From a virus: DNA of 32,833 bases. The translations under genes and the position numbers were made by a program. Positions 3,790-7,827 of the stretch are shown piece after piece. Positions within the stretch are counted from its first letter, which is position 1, and every line of letters starts with the position of its first letter. The DNA is taken from the IMG/VR virus record IMGVR_UViG_3300031973_001073, positions 1 to 32,833 of that record, one strand, 5' to 3'. The notes under the pieces are model-generated. The model saw only the letters and a program-made list of their open reading frames with translations, was not told where the DNA came from and ran no database searches.

Positions 3790-3795
3790 TACACG

Positions 3796-3835
3796 CTCCC
3801 CACTTGATCCTAAACATCTCAAAGTGGGGAGTTTT
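3796..3835 (+). terminator. Strong intrinsic terminator of the lysis operon
   Basis: Ten-base perfect arms CTCCCCACTT (3796-3805) and AAGTGGGGAG (3822-3831) are extended by GA/TC and followed by TTTT. The T tract runs directly into the next -10 box at 3837. Confidence 0.9.
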
Positions 3836-3836
3836 G

Positions 3837-3842
3837 TATAAT
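3837..3842 (+). promoter_or_regulatory. -10 box of a putative promoter for a short RNA
   Basis: TATAAT placed one base after the T tract of the lysis terminator, with no recognisable -35. The expected start is near 3849, giving a transcript of about 65 nt that ends at the terminator at 3886-3915. Confidence 0.55.
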
Positions 3843-3848
3843 AGTAGT

Positions 3849-3915
3849 TGGCGTTTTCATACTTCGCCAAAAATAACTTGCATTTCCTCGCCTTAAACAA
3901 GCGAGGTTTTGTTTT
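3849..3915 (+). ncRNA. Putative ~65-nt two-hairpin small RNA or attenuated leader
   Basis: From the predicted start this RNA has a perfect 6-bp hairpin (TTGGCG 3848-3853 with CGCCAA 3865-3870). A terminator hairpin follows (CCTCGC 3886-3891 with GCGAGG 3901-3906), then TTTTGTTTT. The next gene starts 38 bases later with its own Shine-Dalgarno site. It may be a free small RNA, or the attenuated leader of the gene at 3954. Confidence 0.5.
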
Positions 3916-3953
3916 ATTTGAGATAATTAGTTAGCACCTTAAAGGAGAGGGTC

Positions 3954-4199
3954 GTGGAGTACTTTGAGATTTGGATCTTCCACTCTCGAGGGGTTACGCC
4001 AGTCAAAATGTTGGAAGCTCCGTTTTGGGAGTTGTACAACTTCTTCAGGCGTAATCTAACCGAAAACAAGACCGACATCTGCTGTCAACTAGAAATAGTT
4101 ATGAATGCAGGTACAGACCGAGAGTACACCGCCAAATATGAGGGTGTTTGGCAGATAATCTCTCCAGCTCAACTCACTCTGCAAGCAGGTGTGAATTGA
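3954..4199 (+). CDS. Small hypothetical protein
   Basis: 81 residues starting at GTG, supported by an AAGGAGAGG site at 3942-3950. The sequence is rich in aromatic residues with no membrane segment, and has a mid-protein acidic stretch and two adjacent cysteines. Its stop overlaps a candidate TTG start of the HNH gene. It is not recognised. Position between the lysis cassette and an HNH gene gives no firm clue to function. Confidence 0.6.
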   Translation: MEYFEIWIFHSRGVTPVKMLEAPFWELYNFFRRNLTENKTDICCQLEIVMNAGTDREYTAKYEGVWQIISPAQLTLQAGVN

Positions 4200-4522
4200 C
4201 TTGCTGGTTTTGTTCGCAAATCCTCAACTCATTCACACAACGCATCAACCGACACCACATCAAGCCACTACGCTTCCTCAAACCAAACCCTGAACTCTAC
4301 ACCGAGATACACCACCACACTAATCTCGTTCTAGTCCACGTTGAATGCCACGAGCGTTTCAACAAGGTCTACGACAAAGGGTGGGACTGGAAGCAGTTTC
4401 AACGACAAATGCAACGCATCAACTGGGGCAAAGGGGTGTTCTTTGAAAATACTCATCTATCTGGCCATCTCCGCACTGGTTCTCGTCGTTACTGGAGCAA
4501 TAGCGCTCCTAGTAACAGATAG
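4196..4522 (+). CDS. HNH homing-type endonuclease
   Basis: 108 residues from the TTG at 4196, which overlaps the upstream stop and follows an AGCAGGTG site. An earlier TTG at 4148 is possible. The HNH fold is visible as a CWFC zinc knuckle, the RHHIKPLR motif carrying the catalytic His, and N-LVLVHVECH at the third element. The last ~25 residues look unconstrained. The segment is noticeably richer in C and G than its neighbours, which suggests recent acquisition as a mobile endonuclease. It could alternatively act in packaging, but a second HNH gene beside the terminase fits that role better. Confidence 0.75.
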   Translation: MTCWFCSQILNSFTQRINRHHIKPLRFLKPNPELYTEIHHHTNLVLVHVECHERFNKVYDKGWDWKQFQRQMQRINWGKGVFFENTHLSGHLRTGSRRYWSNSAPSNR

Positions 4523-4538
4523 ACCAATAGAATGCTGA
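4443..4538 (+). CDS. Possible 31-residue single-TM peptide overlapping the HNH gene
   Basis: Reading from the TTG at 4443, 11 nt after an AAAGGGG site, the frame encodes 31 residues. Most form one clean hydrophobic helix (ILIYLAISALVLVVTGAIALL) with a charged C-terminus. It overlaps the unconstrained end of the HNH gene. No family is recognised, and the hydrophobic pattern is the only support. Confidence 0.3.
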   Translation: MKILIYLAISALVLVVTGAIALLVTDRPIEC

Positions 4539-4543
4539 ATATA

Positions 4544-4568
4544 AGCCTCGATTAATTTCGGGGCTTTT
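4544..4568 (+). terminator. Intrinsic terminator after the HNH region
   Basis: An 8-bp helix including one G-U pair joins 4544-4551 to 4558-4565, followed by TTTT. It ends transcription just before the promoter at 4570. Confidence 0.75.
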
Positions 4569-4569
4569 C

Positions 4570-4581
4570 TTGTGGTACAAT
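4570..4581 (+). promoter_or_regulatory. Extended -10 promoter, first copy of a repeated element
   Basis: TTGTGGTACAATAAT (4570-4584) carries a TGn extension before TACAAT (4576-4581). It differs at one base from the copy at 4640-4654. The predicted start is near 4588. Confidence 0.6.
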
Positions 4582-4587
4582 AATATT

Positions 4588-4641
4588 GCTTAATAAACAA
4601 AAAAAATCTACAGAAGACCACCCATAAAAAGGTGGTTTTTT
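4588..4641 (+). ncRNA. Putative ~54-nt terminator-capped small RNA
   Basis: An A-rich single-stranded leader is followed by a terminator hairpin, ACCACC (4617-4622) with GGTGGT (4631-4636), and six T. It is bounded upstream by its own extended -10 promoter and downstream by the next promoter copy. There is no start codon with a usable frame. It may be a small RNA or an attenuated leader. Confidence 0.5.
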
Positions 4642-4651
4642 GTGGTATAAT
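4640..4651 (+). promoter_or_regulatory. Extended -10 promoter, second copy of a repeated element
   Basis: TTGTGGTATAATAAT (4640-4654) has a perfect TATAAT (4646-4651) with a TGn extension and overlaps the T tract of the preceding terminator. The predicted start is near 4658. Confidence 0.65.
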
Positions 4652-4657
4652 AATCTT

Positions 4658-4774
4658 GTTAAATACGCTCCCCTTTGAGTGTAGGCAGGTAAAGTCCTGT
4701 GCTACTAACGAAACACTCAAGGATAAAATTAAGACCTTTGAACCAATACAATTTCTGGCTCAAGGGTCTTTTTT
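4658..4774 (+). ncRNA. Putative ~117-nt structured small RNA with own promoter and terminator
   Basis: TTGAGTGT (4675-4682) pairs perfectly with ACACTCAA (4713-4720), and an inner stem CAGG (4686-4689)/CCTG (4696-4699) sits inside that helix. A 13-position terminator helix (4732-4744 with 4757-4769, one G-U and one mismatch) ends in six T. The unit starts at an extended -10 promoter and stops 20 bases before the methyltransferase ATG, which has its own -10 box. It therefore looks like an independent non-coding transcript and not a 5' UTR. No known family is recognised. Confidence 0.6.
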
Positions 4775-4781
4775 GATGGGG

Positions 4782-4787
4782 TATAAT
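4782..4787 (+). promoter_or_regulatory. -10 box giving a leaderless methyltransferase mRNA
   Basis: GGGGTATAAT ends seven bases before the ATG at 4795, so the predicted transcription start falls at or beside the start codon. No Shine-Dalgarno site fits in between. Confidence 0.6.
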
Positions 4788-4794
4788 TCACTAT

Positions 4795-6096
4795 ATGCAC
4801 GATATTATTCAAGGGAATTGTTTGGAAGTGCTAACACAGCTTGAAGATAATTCCATTGACGCTATTGTTACTGATCCGCCCTATGAACTTGGTTTTATGG
4901 GTAAGTCTTGGGACAATACAGGAATAGCAAACAACCCTTTAATGTGGGCAGAATGTCTAAGAGTATTAAAGCCAGGTGGACACCTTTTAGCATTTAGTGG
5001 AACTAGGACATATCACAGAATGGCAGTAGCGATTGAAGACGCAGGATTTGAAGTGAGAGATATGATTGAATGGATTTACTCTACTGGATTCCCCAAATCT
5101 TTGAATATAGGTAAGGCGGTTGATAAGTTACAAGGGAATGAGAGAGAAATTGTCGGTGAACAAAAACTAATGGGAACTGCTAGAAGAATGAAAGGTGGAA
5201 ACTTTAATGATTTTGGTGGAGAAGATACTGCTGATGTCGTTAGTTTAACCAAAGGCACTTCCGAATGGGAAGGCTGGGGGACTGCTCTAAAACCAGCACA
5301 CGAACCCATCTGTATGGCACGAAAACCTTTAGCAGAAAAAACAGTAGCAGAGAACTGTCTTAAATATGGAACAGGTGGAATAAATATAGATGAGAGTAGG
5401 GTGGGTTATTCTTCCGAGTATGATAAAAAACATCAAGACGATATACAAAAAGGACAATTAAACGCAGATAATGGAAAGTTTTTTGGTGGTAATGGACAAA
5501 GTATTTCAAGTGGTAATCTACAAGGTCGCTTCCCTGCCAACCTAATCCACGACAACAGTGAAGAAGTAAGAGAGTGTTTTCCTGAGAGTAAAAGTGGTGC
5601 AATGAATGGAATATATAAAAATACAATGATGAAAGGAGAACCTGGTGTAAGAGATGGAAAAGAAATATATCTACATCAAGAAGCAAGTTCAGGCAACGCC
5701 TCTCGTTTCTTCAAATCAATAATCTATCAAGCAAAAGCAAGTAAGAGTGAGAGGAATAAGGGGTGTGAAGAACTAGAGGAAAAAGAACGAATTGACTATG
5801 GTGGTTTTCACAGTGAACAAGGTTTAATAAATAATAATAGAAATCCAGAAAACAGAAAACCAACAACTAATAACCACCCAACAGTCAAACCAATAGCCCT
5901 AATGGAATACCTAATCAAAATGGTAACTCCTAAAGGTGGAATAGTATTAGACCCATTTGCAGGTTCAGGTTCTACACTTGTTGCCGCTAAACAAAACGGT
6001 TTTCAATATGTTGGAATAGAATTAGATAAAGATTACTGCATAATTGCCGAATCAAGATTGAAACAAAAAACACTAAAACAGGAAGTGTTATTTTAA
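4795..6096 (+). CDS. Beta-class DNA methyltransferase (N6-adenine or N4-cytosine)
   Basis: 433 residues. Motif IV (TDPPY, 26-30) comes before the target-recognition region and motif I (DPFAGSGST, 386-394). This is the beta-class order of the N4/N6 methyltransferase family. The HPTVKP segment (about 361-366) and VGIELDKDYC complete the SAM-binding part. Residues about 115-345 form a long, charged, Asn/Gly-rich insertion, probably the target-recognition domain. That makes the protein longer than the usual ~280-320 residues. It probably protects phage DNA from host restriction. It has its own -10 box with no leader and no visible partner endonuclease. N6 versus N4 cannot be decided from the motif alone. 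Confidence 0.9.
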   Translation: MHDIIQGNCLEVLTQLEDNSIDAIVTDPPYELGFMGKSWDNTGIANNPLMWAECLRVLKPGGHLLAFSGTRTYHRMAVAIEDAGFEVRDMIEWIYSTGFPKSLNIGKAVDKLQGNEREIVGEQKLMGTARRMKGGNFNDFGGEDTADVVSLTKGTSEWEGWGTALKPAHEPICMARKPLAEKTVAENCLKYGTGGINIDESRVGYSSEYDKKHQDDIQKGQLNADNGKFFGGNGQSISSGNLQGRFPANLIHDNSEEVRECFPESKSGAMNGIYKNTMMKGEPGVRDGKEIYLHQEASSGNASRFFKSIIYQAKASKSERNKGCEELEEKERIDYGGFHSEQGLINNNRNPENRKPTTNNHPTVKPIALMEYLIKMVTPKGGIVLDPFAGSGSTLVAAKQNGFQYVGIELDKDYCIIAESRLKQKTLKQEVLF

Positions 6097-6143
6097 TTTA
6101 AGTCTTTTTGATGACTTGCAACAGTTGGTAAATGGGTTTATTA

Positions 6144-6173
6144 TTGAATAAATACCTCGTAGTAAGCTATAAT
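6144..6173 (+). promoter_or_regulatory. Promoter TTGAAT-18-TATAAT spanned by an inverted repeat
   Basis: A -35 TTGAAT (6144-6149) and a perfect -10 TATAAT (6168-6173) are 18 bases apart. CCTCGTAG (6155-6162) in the spacer is repeated inverted as CTACGAGG (6196-6203) inside the loop of the following terminator. The start should be near 6180. Confidence 0.65.
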
Positions 6174-6184
6174 ACTAGCAAATT

Positions 6185-6217
6185 AAAGCGACTTTCTACG
6201 AGGGGTCGCTTTTTTTT
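6185..6217 (+). terminator. Leader terminator with a loop complementary to upstream sequence
   Basis: Eight-base arms AAAGCGAC (6185-6192) and GTCGCTTT (6205-6212) run into a T tract to 6217. The loop contains CTACGAGG, complementary to 6155-6162. A transcript reading through from upstream could pair these and compete with termination, while a transcript from the local promoter lacks the upstream arm. Confidence 0.7.
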
Positions 6218-6225
6218 ATGATTAA

Positions 6226-6498
6226 AACCTACACCCAAAAACCCAATATTGATTACTTTAATGTAATGGTCGCTTCAACGGCAGTTCAGCACGACCAGCC
6301 CCATAAATCAAGGCTATAAACTTAGGTTGCTGAAGCAAAGATGACATTGCGGATACTTCAACGAGGGCAATGAAAGGGCGGTGTAGGTTAAAAGGTCTTA
6401 ACGCCACTTGCCCCTACTAGACCGAAAGGAGCGTAGGGAGAGATAGACCGAAATGGGGAAACTCATACCGATTAGCTCTTATAGAGAATCTATTTGCG
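6226..6498 (+). ncRNA. Candidate large structured non-coding RNA
   Basis: This 426-base gap between genes (6097-6522) holds many perfect complementary pairs. A 10-bp closing helix joins 6226-6235 to 6380-6389. Inside it lie 6268-6272/6292-6296 and CATTGC 6345-6350/GCAATG 6367-6372. TTCAGCA 6285-6291/TGCTGAA 6328-6334 is an alternative or tertiary pairing. After it, CCCTAC 6412-6417 pairs with GTAGGG 6433-6438 around an inner CC-GAAA-GG tetraloop hairpin. TAGACCGAAA occurs twice (6418-6427, 6444-6453). The only ORF inside is 33 codons. The 3' end is not defined because no terminator is visible. The RNA class is unknown. Confidence 0.5.
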
Positions 6499-6522
6499 TG
6501 TTCTTAACTTGGGCAAATAATT

Positions 6523-6717
6523 ATGGATATTAAAACCTTTAGATTAAAATTAAGAGAGTTGGCTAGAGAAGATCTTGAGAAAGCTAAGGAGTTCTTTGAC
6601 TCAGAGTATCCTAGATTAGTTAGAGAGACTAGAATGACTTTAGAATTAAGAGAATATTTAGAGGTTAAAAAAATCGGGCGGAACTTTTTGGAATATTATG
6701 CAAATCGTAAAGTATAA
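6523..6717 (+). CDS. Small charged helical protein
   Basis: 64 residues, almost entirely predicted alpha-helix, rich in Arg, Glu, Leu and Lys, with no cysteine or membrane segment. It lies between the structured RNA region and the cytosine methyltransferase. No family is recognised. A small DNA- or RNA-binding or regulatory role is possible from charge alone. Confidence 0.55.
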   Translation: MDIKTFRLKLRELAREDLEKAKEFFDSEYPRLVRETRMTLELREYLEVKKIGRNFLEYYANRKV

Positions 6718-6730: not shown

Positions 6731-7827
6731 ATGAAATATTTAGATTTATTTTCGGGTATCGGAGGTTTTGCTCTAGGAATACAACAAGCTTATGAAAGCA
6801 ATAATGAATATGCACCTCTCAGCGAGGAATCCGAACCGCAAGAACGCCAAGAGGGGGGGTCAGGACCATTAGTATCAACAAAACACAGTTACACGATCGA
6901 GACAGGACAACCCCACTATGTGTTGGATATTCCGAAATCGACAAATATGCAATTCAAGTCTACGAAAAACACTTCCCAGACCACCGAAACTTTGGAGACA
7001 TCACAACTATCGCTACTGCCGACATCCCAGACTTCGACCTGCTCGTTGGCGGATTCCCTTGCCAAGCTTTCAGTATTGCTGGAAAACGCAGGGGATTTGA
7101 CGACACTAGAGGAACTCTCTTTTTTGAAATCGCTAGGATTCTCAGAGACAAAAGACCCCGATATTTTCTACTCGAAAATGTCAAAGGTTTACTTAGTCAT
7201 GACAGCGGAAAAACTTTCCAGACAATACTTGGGGTTCTCACCGACATTGGGTATGAGTATCAATGGCAAGTTCTTAACAGCAAAAACTTCGGAGTCCCCC
7301 AGAATAGGGAACGTATCTTCATTGTCGGAAATATTAGAGGAGAACCCAGGCCAGAAGTATTTCCTATCGGAGAAAGCAACGGAAGGAATATTGAGAGCAA
7401 GCAAGATGATTCAACAACAGCGAGAACAGTCTCGGCAAGATTTAGGAAAGGGGTTGGAAACACCGAAAGCCGAATAGTTGATGTGTTGGTAGATGCCGAG
7501 AATGGTAAGAGAATAAACAGCATTAAGGAGTTAGCAGGTATTATTCAACTTAACCAGCCCACCCACTCCAACAACAGAATCTACGGAACAGGTGGAGTAA
7601 GCCCAAGTCTGAATACTGCACAAGGGGGGAATAGACAGCCAAAGATAACTACTGATACTAAAATCCGCCGCCTAACTCCCAAAGAATGTGAACGCTTACA
7701 GGGCTTCCCTGATAACTGGACTGATATTTTGAGCGATACTCAAAGGTACAAAACGCTAGGAAATGCGGTTACAACTAATGTGATAAAGGAAATAATTAAA
7801 AGACTTTATGCAAATACTCACACCTGA
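6731..7827 (+). CDS. C5-cytosine DNA methyltransferase interrupted by a frameshift at a G7 tract
   Basis: The ATG frame encodes motif I (DLFSGIGGFALG) and then runs on in a meaningless frame to a stop at 7477. All other motifs lie in the -1 frame, open to 7827: motif II region (VGYSEIDKYAIQ), motif IV (GGFPCQAFSIAG with the catalytic Cys), motif VI (LLENVKGLL), motif VIII (QNRERIF) and motif X (GNAV). The frames can be joined by a -1 shift on the G7 run at 6853-6859. An extra ~40 residues separate motifs I and II. The cause may be an assembly error, a phase-variable tract, programmed slippage or a dead gene. The motifs downstream are intact, which argues against long-standing decay. The likely role is DNA protection or regulation alongside the other two methyltransferases. 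Confidence 0.8.

Follow-up and report, generated by a model that had tools for sequence, protein, structure and literature searches.

A putative new pseudoknotted RNA motif with two known members, one in a phage and one in an integrative element

The gap and its setting in the phage genome

The DNA analysed here, referred to as the window, is the whole virus record IMGVR_UViG_3300031973_001073 (32,833 bases). An intergenic gap of 426 bases, which an earlier reading of the letters (hereafter the sequence-only reading) had correctly reported, lies between the gene of an N6/N4 methyltransferase and a 64-codon ORF that belongs to no known family (Table 1). Farther along, the window encodes an Erf recombinase, an MT-A70 methyltransferase, a terminase, a major head protein and sugar-modifying enzymes. 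The genes near the RNA core described below all point in the same direction, so that the sense position of the core ahead of an ORF says little in itself. The closest terminases in the genome collections (58-68%) were scattered over metagenome bins, including Woesebacteria, Elusimicrobia and Geobacteraceae, and the host of the phage is therefore uncertain, with Patescibacteria as a plausible candidate.

Table 1. Position of the gap, of its neighbouring genes and of the features within it
Feature	Position	Strand	Remarks
N6/N4 methyltransferase	4795-6096		upstream of gap
Gap, 426 bases	6097-6522		holds RNA core 6377-6466
Sigma-70-like promoter TTGAAT-18-TATAAT	6144-6173	+	10/12; runs directly into terminator
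Intrinsic terminator	6185-6217	+	11 pairs (6185-6212) and T-run tail; precedes RNA
AACCTACACC	6226-6235	+	complementary to invariant loop 6380-6389, in this phage only
Conserved RNA core, putative H-type pseudoknot with inserted hairpin and 3' hairpin	6377-6466	+	relative at L229:1504-1614
Helix P1	6377-6405 (6377-6380 with 6402-6405)	+	2/4 pairs changed on both sides in L229
Invariant block GUGUAGGUUAAAAG(S)UCUUAA, S = G or C	6381-6401	+	20/21 identical in L229
Pseudoknot helix	6394-6449 (6394-6398 GGUCU with 6445-6449 AGACC)	+	1/5 pairs compensatory
Inserted hairpin CCCUAC..CC-GAAA-GG..GUAGGG, 27 nt	6412-6438	+	26-nt hairpin at same place in L229
Invariant block AGAGAUAGA(S)CGAA, S = G or C	6439-6452	+	13/14 identical in L229
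3' hairpin AUGGG-GAAA-CUCAU	6453-6466	+	GGGUACG..CGUAUCC in L229
64-codon ORF	6523-6717	+	next after RNA; no known family
Dcm-type methyltransferase	6731-7827		after 64-codon ORF

Several side observations concern the neighbouring genes. The Dcm-type cytosine methyltransferase gene is frameshifted near a run of G at approximately 6855, with motif I in one frame and the PCQ motif and the remainder in another, which could reflect either an assembly error or real decay; the PHROG family phrog_16143 matched the wrong-frame translation, which suggests that this family holds misframed proteins. At the upstream methyltransferase, the mRNA is probably leaderless, since the start codon at 4795 lies approximately 7 bases 3' of a TATAAT box (4769-4795). 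The preceding stretch (3790-4795) contains short units in series, in which the T run of an intrinsic terminator passes directly into a promoter (TTTTTTGTGGTATAAT, TTTTCTTGTGGTACAAT, TTTTTTGATGGGGTATAAT, GTTTTGTATAAT), and none of 100 shuffles folded as well as the segment 4480-4800 (z -8.3). These units may be a source of very short RNAs in series, or attenuators. A similar terminator-promoter fusion was seen at L036:540-575, and an unrelated viral contig (L138:3968-4030) carries TAGACCGAAACGGTTTA twice, flanking a promoter, probably as a repressor operator.

The RNA had been credited with a good promoter. A sigma-70-like box does exist, but it cannot account for the RNA alone, because it leads into the 11-pair terminator, which begins approximately 5 bases past the point where transcription should start and separates both the promoter and the upstream methyltransferase from the core. 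The 8-bp pairing CCTCGTAG/CTACGAGG (within 6155-6203) competes with this terminator and may represent an antiterminator-like alternative fold, which would be available only to read-through RNA from the upstream methyltransferase gene.

The absence of a credible ORF from the gap, also part of the sequence-only reading, held in part. A frame of 33 codons (6218-6319) displays gene-like codon use, though it has neither a Shine-Dalgarno sequence nor a relative. For the entire gap, a coding origin was rejected, as codon use after 6319 did not support it.

The conserved core and its relative

When 380 genomes were searched at the DNA level, all from the phylum to which the Woesebacteria bin belongs (Patescibacteria, going by the organism title of its centre), a single match emerged, with an E of 3.9e-4 for one genome. 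On its own, this match to a locus designated L229 would be weak, but local realignment recovered two blocks: L229 carries GTGTAGGTTAAAAGCTCTTAA followed 36 bases on by AGAGATAGAGCGAA, and the window carries GTGTAGGTTAAAAGGTCTTAA and AGAGATAGACCGAA with a spacing of 37 bases. Under the assumption of equal base frequencies, approximately 5e-8 occurrences of both blocks at matching spacing would be expected in the sequence searched, and the homology between the window and L229 is therefore not attributable to chance.

The conserved part spans 90 bases in the window and 111 in L229, and the covariance model R1 scored them at 113.5 and 112.1 bits, respectively, both being its training sequences. 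Helix P1, which is GGCG/CGCC in the window and extended to six pairs (CGAGGG/CCCUCG) in L229, is predicted to close a loop holding the invariant GUGUAGGUUAAAAG, where optional inner pairs (6388-6391/6398-6401) could also form. Part of this loop, GGUCU, would pair with AGACC approximately 50 bases downstream to yield an H-type pseudoknot, the second pair of which is G6395-C6448 in the window and C-G in L229; the sole differences within the two blocks are thus partners of each other. After the first block, a spacer of ten bases in both copies leads to the hairpin 6412-6438, which would lie in the last loop of the pseudoknot. Little of its sequence is common to both copies, and three of its six lower pairs carry double changes. 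The AGAGAUA linker, which crosses back in the predicted fold, is invariant, and the second hairpin starts immediately after CGAA in both copies. Equally good folding was found in 1.4% and 2.2% of shuffles for the inserted hairpin (window and L229, respectively) and in 0.3% and 2.5% for the 3' hairpin. As a nested single-sequence fold, the core of the window is of ordinary stability, being equalled by 15% of shuffles.

Compensatory changes between the copies were found in P1, the pseudoknot and the inserted hairpin, in a comparison of two sequences only. That the loops and the linker are near-invariant between these two sequences while the helix bases vary in pairs is the pattern produced by selection on an RNA fold. 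From this comparison it is very likely that 6377-6466 exists as a conserved structured RNA, and the gap thus appears to hold a new pseudoknotted RNA motif with two known members and no described family.

Both copies reside in mobile elements. In L229, the core lies within an integrative element of approximately 8.5 kb, flanked by an intact rarA-like gene on one side and by a partial duplicate of that gene's 3' end on the other, and the last gene of this element encodes a large serine recombinase (581 codons). In both copies the core is sense-oriented ahead of a short ORF, by 56 bases from the last hairpin to the start codon (6523) in the window and by 84 bases in L229, where the ORF has 63 codons and is unrelated to that of the window. 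An integrative element, noted at L238:14012-14455 in a Patescibacteria-type genome, is inserted at a rarA-like ATPase gene; it has a diverged copy of the 3' part of the gene at one end and is adjoined by a large serine recombinase.

Seen against this shared structure, the pairings on which the sequence-only reading was built fared unequally. Only the CCCTAC/GTAGGG hairpin (6412-6417/6433-6438, around CC-GAAA-GG) belongs to it. The 10-bp helix AACCTACACC/GGTGTAGGTT (6226-6235/6380-6389), the CATTGC/GCAATG stem and the TTCAGCA/TGCTGAA pair are real complementarities, but they have no counterpart in L229, which at the place of the latter two, upstream of the shared part, has the end of a DUF5659 frame. 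It is possible that AACCTACACC is a switch partner competing for the invariant loop, or that its complementarity arose by chance. Both copies of the repeated decamer TAGACCGAAA are present (6418 and 6444); the first, inside the hairpin, is not conserved, but the second, the relevant one, belongs to the core, its AGACC being the partner of GGTCT (6394-6398) and including the compensatory change. In dinucleotide shuffles, where P varies with the span chosen, a perfect 10-bp complement occurred in 3-9% (P 0.03-0.09) and a 10-base direct repeat in 2-7% (P 0.02-0.07), and the counts of 6-7-bp complements were near expectation (P 0.05-0.4). The whole region folded with a z of -1.46 (15/200 shuffles equally good), and 160-base windows within 6218-6520 ranged from +0.7 to -0.7. 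The listed segments alone are barely beyond chance, and by these statistics no structured RNA could be demonstrated from one sequence alone.

No third member was found in approximately 1,250 genomes of the phylum in all, most of them searched by covariance model; the large-set runs used stricter filters and the genomes are a sample, so that rarity is not proven. With the collections of phages and plasmids included, the known members number two. Weak model matches (L232-L237, L239 and L194; 17-25 bits) were rejected, as they had no second block and were about as many as hundreds of genomes should yield. Searches with blastn against INPHARED and PLSDB gave only chance-level matches, both for the gap and for the L229 core and two 36-base cores. 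A 17-base match in the Bacillus phages Eoghan, Taylor and Blastoid was discarded, the second block being absent where it was read (Eoghan). In IMG/VR, exact matching of 19- and 20-mers taken from around the 3' hairpin found nothing, the decamer-repeat pattern gave six unrelated matches, and the 64- and 601-residue proteins had no relatives. None of the phage relatives identified via the terminase, methyltransferase, Erf and MT-A70 shared the gap, and literature text searches retrieved no paper describing this RNA.

Comparison with known RNA classes

The sequence-only reading did not recognise the RNA as a known class, and this was confirmed, as neither copy matched any Rfam 15 family (cmscan). 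The window at gathering thresholds and the gap at E up to 10 returned nothing except plainly chance or terminator-like matches, and L229 had none at E up to 5. In topology, the core resembles riboswitch-type pseudoknots with an inserted hairpin, such as preQ1-II, sharing with that type the succession of stem, loop, second stem and hairpin in the last loop, a size of approximately 90 bases and near-invariant loops. Unlike these riboswitches, the core has no Shine-Dalgarno sequence or terminator within the pseudoknot and no known ligand, and in neither copy did it match any described riboswitch class in Rfam.

GOLLD and ROOL, brought up for comparison in the sequence-only reading, are likewise non-coding RNAs of phages and mobile elements, but they are several hundred bases long and frequently neighbour tRNAs, whereas the core measures 90 or 111 bases, the window has no tRNA and the nearest one in L238 is more than 4 kb off. 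Their covariance models gave no match at gathering thresholds or E up to 10 in the window, nor at E up to 5 in L229, and there is no evidence of kinship with either class. PMC12286853 describes the two, along with OLE, as large ornate bacterial RNAs.

Possible functions of the core

Over a free-standing RNA or a ribozyme, we tentatively favour a cis-acting leader element. Forming the 5' portion of a transcript of the phage or mobile element, the pseudoknot would fold or refold, perhaps upon binding of a ligand or protein, and would alter transcription or translation of the genes behind it. These would be the 64-codon ORF and the Dcm-type methyltransferase in the window, and the 63-codon ORF and the large serine recombinase in L229. 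In favour of a leader are the residence of both copies in mobile elements, their sense orientation ahead of a short ORF with no terminator predicted in between on that strand, and the riboswitch-like topology. Against a leader speak that the downstream genes of the two copies are unrelated, that the comparison comprises two sequences, and that no promoter was recognised between the terminator (6217) and the core. Neither a ribosome-binding site nor a terminator coincides with the pseudoknot, and no expression platform is visible.

The same difference between the downstream genes would suit a free-standing small RNA of mobile elements, trans-acting or protein-binding and transcribed by a promoter of its own immediately ahead of the core, which we regard as a somewhat unlikely alternative to the leader. 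The invariant single-stranded blocks would suit a binding protein or a target RNA, and hexamers read by eye precede the core in both copies (TATAAC-like, approximately 15 bases before P1, in L229; TATAAA-like in the window). However, the promoter scan recognised no promoter between the end of the terminator (6217) and the core, and no sense-strand terminator was predicted between the core and the following ORF in either the window or L229.

That the core is a ribozyme of mobile elements, either self-cleaving or intron-like, is improbable, though the order of strands (P1 strand, pseudoknot strand, P1', hairpin, linker AGAGAUA, second pseudoknot strand, hairpin) by inspection resembles that of the group I P3-P7 pseudoknot with P8 and J8/7, with pairs supported in two sequences. 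This order and the A-rich linker before the pseudoknot strand recall the P3-P7-P8-P9 half of group I introns and its J8/7. The near-invariant loops, the unrelated gene contexts of the two copies and the L229 DUF5659 frame, which continues into the gap for approximately 30 codons beyond its domain, would also fit catalysis. Unlike group I introns, however, the core has only 13 bases (GUGUAGGUUAAAA in both copies) at the place of P4-P6, and neither a conserved flanking exon nor an exon pair was identified. Rfam models of group I (Intron_gpI), group II, HDV-like and other ribozymes gave no match at E up to 10 in the window or 5 in L229. Since P4-P6 could not be accommodated and Rfam gave no match, membership in group I is not claimed. 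HDV-like ribozymes likewise have a pseudoknot and a hairpin before the last strand, but theirs is a nested double pseudoknot whose P2 and P1' strands are separated by a P3 hairpin, where the core has three bases.

The large ornate RNA of 273 bases (6226-6498) originally drawn is very unlikely as such: a conserved structured RNA does lie in that interval, but it comprises approximately 90 bases. The domain 6226-6389 folded somewhat better than its shuffles (z -2.09, 7/200), with ends that had been picked around the 10-bp helix, and against it stand the missing counterparts of the upstream stems in L229 and the coding-like codon use of 6218-6319. Least probable are two further explanations. A site acting at the level of DNA (repressor operator, attachment site or replication origin), with inverted repeats that mimic RNA helices, would agree with the position of L229 approximately 470 bases before the recombinase gene and with the nearly palindromic GTTAAAAGSTCTTAAC, but the paired changes fall in helices formed only by single strands, including the pseudoknot, the loops are fixed, and no recombinase was found among the ORFs tested in the window phage. 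Leftover or decayed coding sequence without a functional RNA, which the low folding z-scores and the frameshifted Dcm neighbour might suggest, is contradicted by L229 with its two-block match and compensatory helices.

The boldest interpretation, a new pseudoknotted RNA class, catalytic or ligand-sensing, of phages and integrative elements of poorly cultivated Patescibacteria, with no described relatives and possibly with a reduced group-I-like core devoid of P4-P6, must be considered a long shot. As a conserved RNA of 90 bases that Rfam lacks and that two unrelated mobile elements share, the core is a defined target for probing, and the consensus GTGTAGGTTAAAAGSTCTTAA N{25,70} AGAGATAGASCGAA, consisting of the two blocks and their spacing, suffices to gather the family from metagenomes. 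If the RNA is a switch or a ribozyme, it would reveal control of integration or modification genes in the mobile elements of Patescibacteria-like hosts, which are difficult to culture and whose RNA has received little study.
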